Shown here: positions 51,691 through 58,148 of the stretch, in pieces | Numbering within the stretch: the first letter of the stretch is position 1 | How the letters are laid out: every line of letters begins with the position of its first letter | Assembly: GCF_008271745.1 (NCBI RefSeq) | Contig: NZ_VKKZ01000010.1 | Span: 62,001 to 126,000, forward strand | DNA length: 64,000 nucleotides | Source: Rufibacter glacialis | GTDB lineage: Bacteria; Bacteroidota; Bacteroidia; Cytophagales; Hymenobacteraceae | Reading direction: 5' to 3' | Notes under the pieces: model-generated | The model's database searches: none | Seen by the model: the letters and a program-made list of their open reading frames with translations, nothing else | What the model was told of the DNA's origin: nothing | Position numbers and translations under genes: made by a program

Positions 51691-51747
51691 GTGCCTGGTT
51701 TGGCAGGAATAATGATTGAAATCATCCATCAGCATTCATTTGTGTTG

Positions 51748-51755
51748 TACCTTTG
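51748..51755 (+). promoter_or_regulatory. -7 box for ccmB
   Basis: TACCTTTG, matching TAnnTTTG, 17 nt before the GTG start of ccmB. The nearest TTG upstream (51716-51718) is too distant for a good -33. Confidence 0.5.
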
Positions 51756-51772
51756 CGCAAAATAAAGAAGAA

Positions 51773-52438
51773 GTGCTGAAAGAGGTTATCTACTTGATGC
51801 AAAAGGATTTTGTGCTGGAATGGCGCCAGAAGTATGCCTTTAACGGCATGCTCCTGTACGTAGGCAGCACGGTTTTCATCTGCTACCTCAGCTTCAGTCT
51901 TCGCTTTGGGGGGTTGGAGGTGCCGGTCTGGAACGCGCTGTTTTGGGTGATCCTGCTGTTTACCTCGGTGAATGCCATTGCCAAGGGCTTTGCCCAGGAA
52001 AGCCGTGGACGGTTGCTCTATTATTATAGCATTGTGAGTCCGCAGGGCGTGATCCTGGCCAAGATGATCTACAACGCGGCGCTTATGCTGGTGCTGTCTT
52101 TGTTGTGCTTCGGGTTTTATGCGGTAGTGATTGGCAACCCGGTGCAGGACGTGGGTATGTTCTTGCTCTCCATTGTGCTGGGGGCCATAGGGTTCGCCTC
52201 TTCGCTCACCATGATCTCCGGCATTGCGGCCAAGGCGGCCAATACCGGTACCCTCATGGCGGTGCTGAGTTTCCCCGTGATGGTGCCCATGCTGCTCATG
52301 CTCATGAAGATGTCTAAGAACGCCATTGACGGGTTAGACCCCTCGGTGAGTGTAGACGAGGCCCTGGTGCTGCTGGCCATCAACATGATCGTGGTCACGG
52401 TGTCTTATATCCTGTTCCCGTACTTGTGGCGCAGTTAA
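51773..52438 (+). CDS. ccmB: Cytochrome c maturation protein CcmB
   Basis: Membrane subunit of the CcmAB ABC complex that releases heme-loaded CcmE. 221 residues with six helices. The start is GTG 51773 (MLKEVIYLMQKDFVLEWRQK), which matches homologues; a TTG at 51716 adds residues unlike the family and lies inside the promoter. The hallmark KDFVLEWRQKYAFNGMLLY is intact. No ccmA ATPase gene is next to it. First gene of ccmBCDEF. Confidence 0.92.
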   Translation: MLKEVIYLMQKDFVLEWRQKYAFNGMLLYVGSTVFICYLSFSLRFGGLEVPVWNALFWVILLFTSVNAIAKGFAQESRGRLLYYYSIVSPQGVILAKMIYNAALMLVLSLLCFGFYAVVIGNPVQDVGMFLLSIVLGAIGFASSLTMISGIAAKAANTGTLMAVLSFPVMVPMLLMLMKMSKNAIDGLDPSVSVDEALVLLAINMIVVTVSYILFPYLWRS

Positions 52439-52467: not shown

Positions 52468-53133
52468 ATGAAGCTTACTTGGTGGAAATGGCTGACGATT
52501 GCCCTGCTGCTGTACACAGTGGTGGGCGGCATGCTGACGGAGGTGCCCCGGCTGGCCATTCTAAACGAGACCATCCGGAACCTGTACTTTCACGTGCCCA
52601 TGTGGTTTGGGATGATCCTGATCCTGCTGGTTTCTGTTATCTACTCCATTAAATACCTGCGTAACCCGCTTTCCAGACATGACATCATTGCCCATGAGGC
52701 AGCCAAGGTGGGCATTCTGTTCGGGGTGCTGGGCATTATCACCGGCATGGAGTGGGCACGTTTCACGTGGGGCGAATTCTGGAGCAATGACCCCAAGCAG
52801 AACGGCTCGGCCATTGGGCTCCTGATCTACTTTGCCTACCTCATTCTGCGGGGTTCTTTCCAGGACCACCAGCAACGGGCCCGCATCAGTGCGGTGTACA
52901 ATATTTTCGCCTTCGCCGCGCTCATCCCGCTCTTGTTCATCTTGCCCCGCCTCACTGATTCCCTGCACCCAGGCAACGGCGGCAACCCGGGTTTCAACGC
53001 CTATGACCTGGATAGCCGGCTGCGGGCCGTGTTTTACCCGGCCGTGCTTGGCTGGACCCTGTTAGGGGTTTGGATGGTGCACCTGCGCACCCGTTTAGAA
53101 GTTTTAAAGCAAAGATTCTATGAAAATGCATAA
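52468..53133 (+). CDS. ccmC: Cytochrome c maturation protein CcmC
   Basis: Heme-handling membrane protein that loads heme onto CcmE; six helices, 221 residues. The two heme-ligand histidines of the family map to H42 (YFHVPMW) and H167 (SLHPGNGG). The tryptophan-rich motif is a variant, TWGEFWSNDPKQ (100-111), with NDP where proteobacteria have a W-D pair. It overlaps ccmD by 14 nt. Confidence 0.93.
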   Translation: MKLTWWKWLTIALLLYTVVGGMLTEVPRLAILNETIRNLYFHVPMWFGMILILLVSVIYSIKYLRNPLSRHDIIAHEAAKVGILFGVLGIITGMEWARFTWGEFWSNDPKQNGSAIGLLIYFAYLILRGSFQDHQQRARISAVYNIFAFAALIPLLFILPRLTDSLHPGNGGNPGFNAYDLDSRLRAVFYPAVLGWTLLGVWMVHLRTRLEVLKQRFYENA

Positions 53134-53398
53134 ATGGCTCTTGGTGCTGCTCTTGACCTGGGCAGCCGGATTCTCTGGCCCTGCGGTGGCCCAAACCACC
53201 TCAGAAGCCACCTCTACGGTGGAGTATTCTTCGCAGGCTCCGGCCTCTTCCTCCATAGAGATGGCAGATATGATGCGCCGCGACGGTAAGATCTACATTG
53301 TGGTGGCGGTCTTGGTAAGCGTGTTGCTGGGCGTGCTTTTGTACCTCATCAGCCTGGATAAAAAAATTGGCCGGTTAGAACGCGAACTTCGGCAATAA
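53120..53398 (+). CDS. ccmD: CcmD-like small membrane protein
   Basis: 92 residues with an N-terminal signal-like helix (LLVLLLTWAAGFSGPAVAQ), a Ser/Thr-rich middle and one membrane helix (about 57-76, IYIVVAVLVSVLLGVLLYLI) followed by a basic tail (KKIGRLERELRQ). It occupies the ccmD position and probably stabilises CcmC and CcmE. Sequence identity to proteobacterial CcmD is low, so the call rests on position and layout. It overlaps ccmC. Confidence 0.75.
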   Translation: MKMHKWLLVLLLTWAAGFSGPAVAQTTSEATSTVEYSSQAPASSSIEMADMMRRDGKIYIVVAVLVSVLLGVLLYLISLDKKIGRLERELRQ

Positions 53399-53542: not shown

Positions 53543-53974
53543 ATGAAAAGAATACACATTATCGGGATTATGGTCATTGCGATGGCTATCATGATCATCA
53601 TGTCAACTGCTTCAGACGCCAGCGTTTACGTACCGTTCTCTGAAGCCCAGGCCCGGGCCAAAGATGGTGATGACACCAAAGTGCACGTGGTAGGCCGGCT
53701 CAAGAAAGACGAAAAAGGGCACATAGTAGGCATGAAGTATGACCCGGTGCTGGACCCCAACTACTTCTCTTTTGTGCTGGTAGATACCAACCGGGTAGAG
53801 CAGACCGTGGTGTATTACAGCCCCAAACCCCAAGACTTTGACCGCTCTGAGCAGGTGGTGATTACCGGCAACATGAAAGAAAACGTCTTCGTAGCCGACA
53901 AGATTCTGCTGAAATGCCCTTCTAAATACACAGAGAACGAAGTGAAGGCAGAAGGTAAAACAGCAAGCCTTTAA
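53543..53974 (+). CDS. ccmE: Cytochrome c maturation heme chaperone CcmE, Cys (CxxxY) type
   Basis: Heme chaperone of cytochrome c maturation: an N-terminal membrane anchor (about 5-22) and a periplasmic OB fold, 143 residues. In most bacteria the heme-binding residue is His in HxxxY. Here the motif reads ILLKCPSKYTENEV, with C125 and Y129, the CxxxY variant described for archaea and a few bacteria. The rest of the fold (KVHVVGRLKKDEKGHIVGMK) is normal. It is 144 nt after ccmD with a palindrome copy between. Confidence 0.92.
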   Translation: MKRIHIIGIMVIAMAIMIIMSTASDASVYVPFSEAQARAKDGDDTKVHVVGRLKKDEKGHIVGMKYDPVLDPNYFSFVLVDTNRVEQTVVYYSPKPQDFDRSEQVVITGNMKENVFVADKILLKCPSKYTENEVKAEGKTASL

Positions 53975-57818: not shown

Positions 57819-58148
57819 ATGAAAGTCGTTAATATTATATACAAGTTCATGGACGGGAAACCGGACGAAACGCATTTAGGCGCCGAGGGCGAGTCTGTGC
57901 TGGACGTTGCGTTGAACAACGGAATCCAGCTGCAGCACAACTGCGGAGGCGTTTGCGGGTGCAGTACGTGCCACGTCTATGTAGAGAGCGGGATGGATGA
58001 CCTGCCTGAAATCACCGACAAAGAGGAAGATTATATTGACCGTGCGGTGAACCCCCGTATCAACTCCCGGCTTGCCTGCCAATGCGTAGTGCAAGGAGGG
58101 CAAGACCTGGTCATTACCATTCCTAAGCAAGATTTCTTAGGCCATTAA
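57819..58148 (+). CDS. fdx: [2Fe-2S] ferredoxin of the Isc type
   Basis: Adrenodoxin-like electron carrier, 109 residues, supplying electrons to iron-sulfur cluster assembly or similar. The cluster ligands follow the family spacing: C42, C48 and C51 (NCGGVCGCSTC), then C87 (LACQC); the extra C46 and C89 resemble E. coli Fdx. It is followed 151 nt later by iscX, so the pair supports an iron-sulfur role, although no iscS or iscU is next to it. Confidence 0.9.
   Translation: MKVVNIIYKFMDGKPDETHLGAEGESVLDVALNNGIQLQHNCGGVCGCSTCHVYVESGMDDLPEITDKEEDYIDRAVNPRINSRLACQCVVQGGQDLVITIPKQDFLGH

Follow-up and report, generated by a model that had tools for sequence, protein, structure and literature searches.

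The ccmE gene at this locus raises the question of whether a CcmE with cysteine at the place of the classic heme-binding histidine is the working heme chaperone of its genome, and whether such a protein is peculiar to that genome. The gene lies in a 64,000-nt stretch of Rufibacter glacialis, which we call the window; residue numbers and coordinates below refer to the window and its CcmE and CcmF. A Cys in CcmE was first described in archaea and Desulfovibrio, and Cys-type CcmE, often without CcmH, has been published as System I* (PMC3601427). The Desulfovibrio Cys-type CcmE binds heme covalently, and the Desulfovibrio Ccm operon matures cytochrome c in Escherichia coli without CcmH and CcmG (PMC3601427). 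According to a 2011 FEBS J review, the majority motif is CPSKY (25 of the 36 Cys-type CcmE then examined), found in delta-proteobacteria, Chloroflexi and Firmicutes, and about one third of Cys-type bacteria retain CcmH (PMC3601427). In Methanosarcina acetivorans, C120 of CcmE is required for heme attachment and stability, and Cys and His were found not to be interchangeable (PMC9084895).

The window ccmE is an intact reading frame of 143 aa with an ATG start. Its product matched the PF03100 profile at 48.6 bits (E 1.1e-12; cut-off 24.6), which supports the earlier note's assignment of the gene to CcmE of the CxxxY type. The motif codons AAA TGC CCT TCT AAA TAC are read as K124, C125, P126, S127, K128 and Y129, with C125 encoded at 53915-53917 and Y129 at 53927-53929. 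In alignment A1, C125 stands opposite H130, the His of the HDENY motif, and Y129 opposite Y134 of E. coli CcmE (reference sequence taken from NC_000913). The substitution of Cys for the classic His, also claimed in that note, is thus present in the codons themselves. A profile search of the whole genome returned the window CcmE as the single PF03100 match. It found no His-type copy, whose presence the note had named as something that would refute it.

Relatives were collected by a contig scan with a pattern requiring KCPSKY. The best 80 of the 565 loci found were used for gene order, for CcmF and as structure input; the closest named relative among them was Rufibacter hautae, whose CcmE is 94% identical. 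In an alignment of 36 CcmE, that of the window and those of 35 among the 80 named loci, residues K124 to Y129 were unchanged throughout, against a mean column identity of 61%. Judged from these sequences, the conservation of KCPSKY is not chance. Because the scan pattern required KCPSKY, the scan is uninformative on how frequent the Cys type is, and the PF03100 census described below is the fairer test. Viral contigs scanned with the window CcmE yielded no relatives.

The ccmE gene sits within a cluster of ccm genes on the forward strand (Table 1). By eye, the true start of ccmB is likely the ATG at 51797. The best NCBIfam match of ccmC was TIGR01191 (ccmC), at 67.2 bits and under its cut-off of 186. 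Of 81 neighbourhoods, comprising the window and the 80 loci of named relatives, 73 have the order ccmBCDEF. Among the remaining eight, seven were without a detected ccmF and one was without ccmB; four of the eight lie at contig ends. In many Hymenobacter loci ccmF begins at least about 1 kb, and as much as 5 kb, past the end of ccmE, compared with the usual distance of about 0.1-0.2 kb, so something sits between the two genes. Loci with the long gap include L194, L196, L197, L201, L203-L205, L222-L224, L233 and L234.

Table 1. Coordinates of ccm features in the window.
Feature	Position	Strand	Evidence
ccmB	51716..52438	+	PF03379 42.3 bits, cut-off 24.9
ccmC, heme delivery to CcmE	52468..53133	+	PF01578 67.5 bits, cut-off 29.9
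ccmD-like small membrane protein (CcmD_alt)	53120..53398	+	PF20077 70.7 bits, cut-off 23.5
ccmE, very probable Cys-type membrane-anchored periplasmic heme chaperone (System I*)	53543..53974	+	PF03100, AlphaFold2, Foldseek
Putative heme-binding motif C125-P-S-K-Y129	53915..53929	+	Codons, alignment to E. coli, phylum census
ccmF, heme lyase, 868 aa	54128..56734	+	PF01578 and PF16327 above cut-off

CcmE across Bacteroidota was surveyed in a census by PF03100, which does not presuppose a Cys. In the family to which R. glacialis belongs, PF03100 matched in 149 of 150 sampled genomes, and the lone exception is a genome that is 78% complete. In the phylum sample it matched in 253 of 395 genomes (145 of 171 genera), and 142 of 395 had no match. 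The motif was read in 252 of the 253 phylum genomes, with one CcmE-bearing genome (G167) outside the count: 250 carry CPSKY, two carry CPSRY and none carries His. All 37 genes read from the 149 family genomes with a match likewise carry CPSKY; the family set and the phylum set have four genes in common. As a control, the motif script called no CPS motif on E. coli CcmE and displayed its tail with HDENY. These results indicate that the Cys type appears to be the rule among CcmE-bearing genomes of Bacteroidota, as far as their sequences tell, and is not peculiar to this genome. The note had placed the Cys type in archaea and a few bacteria; it is indeed known there, but that wording understates its spread. 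In two phylum genomes we observed a second PF03100 match (L399 in G211 and L400 in G441) whose protein stops immediately ahead of where the heme motif would lie. Because they end there, L399 and L400 represent a CcmE paralogue without the heme site.

The rest of the maturation machinery was searched for in the whole genome. PF00034 gave eight matches in seven distinct reading frames, every frame with CxxCH and one with six such motifs. These proteins indicate that the genome has c-type cytochromes to mature, contrary to the absence that the note had considered damaging to its proposal. The window's only ORF above 90 aa with CxxCH (57819-58148) resembles, by eye, a ferredoxin (GCSTCH) and not a cytochrome c. 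A DsbD/CcdA-type membrane protein is encoded in the genome. Searching the genome for CcmH with PF03918 at E<=0.001 gave no match, and the same search was positive in 4 of 14 control genomes. PF05140, for the ResB of System II, also gave no match in the genome and was positive in 5 of 14 control genomes. The CcmA profile TIGR01189 had 56 matches in the genome, the best at 107.9 bits and all under the cut-off of 131.6, and the six proteins scanned against NCBIfam, from eight loci collected, all fit other ABC families better. In that NCBIfam scan 287.6 bits were obtained for E. coli CcmA. No ccmA was found beside ccmB in the window, and no ABC ATPase of the genome scored above the CcmA cut-off. 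The lack of an ABC ATPase recognisable as CcmA speaks against a System I* here, since it leaves the release step without a recognised motor.

We conclude that heme in the periplasm is very probably chaperoned by the window CcmE alone, as part of a System I of the Cys type that lacks CcmH (System I*). This conclusion draws together the gene, its motif, the predicted fold, the cluster, the CcmF histidines, the c-type cytochromes of the genome and the lack of a CcmH or ResB match. We infer the heme attachment to C125, the bond type, the axial ligation and the heme transfer in the window system. CcmB, CcmC and CcmD would load heme onto the membrane-anchored CcmE. There C125 would bond covalently to a heme vinyl, presumably as a thioether, and Y129 would serve as an axial heme ligand. 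Holo-CcmE would dock on CcmF, which would reduce the heme via its own b-heme and pass it to the CxxCH of apocytochromes. Covalent attachment of heme to C125 is the probable centre of this scheme, and the different heme-handling chemistry that the earlier note had read into the Cys would agree with the work on Desulfovibrio and Methanosarcina (PMC3601427, PMC9084895).

We compared the window CcmF with its E. coli counterpart. It has 868 aa compared with 647 in E. coli, a difference of 221 residues, and 172 of these fall into the last periplasmic loop (residues 541-815; 275 aa compared with 103). Among relatives, 68 CcmF exceed 800 aa. They are Cytophagales-type sequences from the scan that required Cys. 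In all 68 the loop measures 272-287 aa, and the mean share of the majority residue is 0.54-0.73 per 40-residue block from position 561 to position 840. All 68 also have His at the positions of E. coli H173, H261, H303 and H491, which we take to be the heme-b and P-His histidines. The CcmF profile matched the solved CcmF 6zmq over positions 45-536 only. In the CcmF model, whose confidence is low (mean pLDDT 67.5), the loop is predicted to be rich in beta structure; a fold search with this model at E<=0.001 found nothing except CcmF itself (6zmq).

The enlarged loop bears on a reading in which System I* of this genome needs an unrecognised substitute for CcmH to handle apocytochrome and heme, either the CcmF loop or an undetected protein. 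We regard this as possible, if rather doubtful. The additional residues, the narrow length range of the loop and its conservation speak for it, and the conserved enlargement, which is possibly new, might stand in for CcmH. CcmH itself is scarce: PF03918 matched at E<=0.001 in merely 11 of 395 phylum genomes, four of them above the cut-off. The search returned 12 rows, 10 of which were inspected (the G518 row and the second G480 row fell outside the inspection), and nine proved CcmH-like with CxCGxC, eight with two domains and L063 with one. The tenth, L069, was set aside because by eye it resembles a histidine kinase. As a group, the nine (L061-L068 and L070) are membrane proteins that carry CcmH-like domains, in most cases two of them, together with CxCGxC motifs and zinc-ribbon-like N-termini. 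Such proteins are encoded in two families of the phylum, f17 (10 genomes) and f35 (2 genomes), and f20 adds a weak match containing a stop codon. Possibly they are divergent CcmH. Their profile matched 13 of 395 phylum genomes and is without a match in the R. glacialis genome; a divergent CcmH below PF03918 detection is possible in this genome. However, the Desulfovibrio and Methanosarcina systems function without CcmH (PMC3601427, PMC9084895), and a substitute is therefore not required. The low pLDDT of the CcmF model, its fold match to CcmF alone and the restriction of the 68 CcmF to Cytophagales-type sequences from a Cys-requiring scan also argue against this reading. A broader proposal is that the System I* of Bacteroidota forms a branch of its own across the phylum, with Cys-type CcmE, no CcmH, no recognisable CcmA next to CcmB, and an enlarged beta-rich CcmF loop that would bind apocytochrome or aid the release of heme from the Cys adduct. 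We think this unlikely.

The fold of CcmE was examined with AlphaFold2 and Foldseek. The model (mean pLDDT 84.3) has an N-terminal helix at residues 3-23 followed by the beta strands of an OB-like barrel. Foldseek placed the solved CcmE structures 1lm0, 1j6q, 1sr3 and 2kct at ranks 3-6, with probability 1.00 and E from 7e-4 to 6e-3. The top two matches were OB domains from other proteins, namely a Dictyostelium nucleoporin and replication protein A. A phmmer search of PDB sequences with the window CcmE recovered solely designed alphaReps (E>=0.0066), which we rejected. Because plain phmmer did not find the CcmE structures, the A1 profile was needed to reach them. This profile includes the E. 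coli row and so matches E. coli entries by construction; it also matched 2kct, the OB domain of Desulfovibrio vulgaris CcmE, where the aligned segment reads TKCP. As a separate observation, an OB-like segment of Dictyostelium Nup160 (PDB 9hcj chain R0, residues 1581-1651) matched both the CcmE profile (E 1.3e-6) and the CcmE model (E 5.3e-4).

Many proteins that are not related to each other have an OB fold, among them the replication protein A, telomere-binding and other proteins in the Foldseek results, two of which ranked above the CcmE structures. The window protein might accordingly be a CcmE-like protein with an OB fold that has ceased to carry heme, with C125 as a structural or metal-binding Cys, and the motif-less second CcmE-like protein of two phylum genomes indicates that relatives without a heme site exist. 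We judge this very improbable, given that the gene is a single copy within an intact ccmBCDEF cluster, that the motif is kept in every phylum gene read, and that the genome encodes c-type cytochromes but gave no match for ResB. That the Cys is a recent, lineage-specific change of no functional consequence is almost certainly wrong: nothing in the data besides the contrast with E. coli speaks for it, every family and phylum gene read is of Cys type, and in M. acetivorans a CcmE with Cys changed to His was itself undetectable (PMC9084895).

The reading of the window CcmE as a System I* chaperone can be set against the literature. The window ccmE is itself ordinary; it is a described variant, to which the census adds that the variant is the rule across the CcmE-bearing genomes of a phylum. 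In the available parts of PMC9084895, PMC3601427, PMC4429474, PMC12285233, PMC6204919, PMC10663686 and PMC13170271, and among the matches listed, we did not find Bacteroidota or Bacteroidetes named for Cys-type CcmE; this is a limited literature, and the founding papers (Allen 2006, Goddard 2010) may name them. The string 'Bacteroid' is absent from the text of the review PMC3601427, which is one of two papers containing CPSKY and the only one of them on the subject. PMC10117432 contains the terms CcmE and Bacteroidetes. One paper places 'bacteroides' under System II (PMC13170271), which fits the 142 of 395 phylum genomes without CcmE. The uniformity of the Cys type across the phylum is possibly new, as is the lack of a recognisable ccmA. 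A phylum in which all CcmE read are of Cys type suggests that descriptions of its carriers as 'a few bacteria' under-count it. The 2011 review also raised the puzzle of how heme, joined to CcmE by a stable thioether-like bond, would be freed during transfer (PMC3601427). Bacteroidota offer many isolated relatives (Rufibacter, Pontibacter, Hymenobacter, Spirosoma) in which this puzzle can be tested.

We compared the window system with the known routes of cytochrome c maturation. System II (CcsBA/ResBC) is distinguished by ResB, for which PF05140 had no match in this genome. The classic System I of E. coli has in common with the window the CcmE fold, a C-terminal heme motif with a conserved Tyr and the order ccmB-C-D-E-F. 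Its CcmE, however, carries HDENY with His130 where the window protein carries KCPSKY with Cys125, the two proteins are 19% identical, and the E. coli cluster also carries ccmA, ccmG and ccmH. CcmABCEF of M. acetivorans likewise has a CXXXY CcmE and no CcmH (PMC9084895). It is without ccmD and its CcmF is split in two (PMC9084895), whereas the window has CcmD_alt and a single CcmF. The presence of CcmD_alt (PF20077) thus sets the window cluster outside the archaeal streamlined CcmABCEF, which is defined by having no ccmD. The Desulfovibrio system belongs to another phylum; in the window, CcmA is unrecognised and the CcmF loop is enlarged relative to E. coli CcmF. As a CXXXY System I* with ccmD present, CPSKY as the majority motif of its type in the 2011 survey and the ability to work without CcmH (Goddard 2010, via PMC3601427 and PMC9084895), Desulfovibrio provides the described counterpart of the window cluster.
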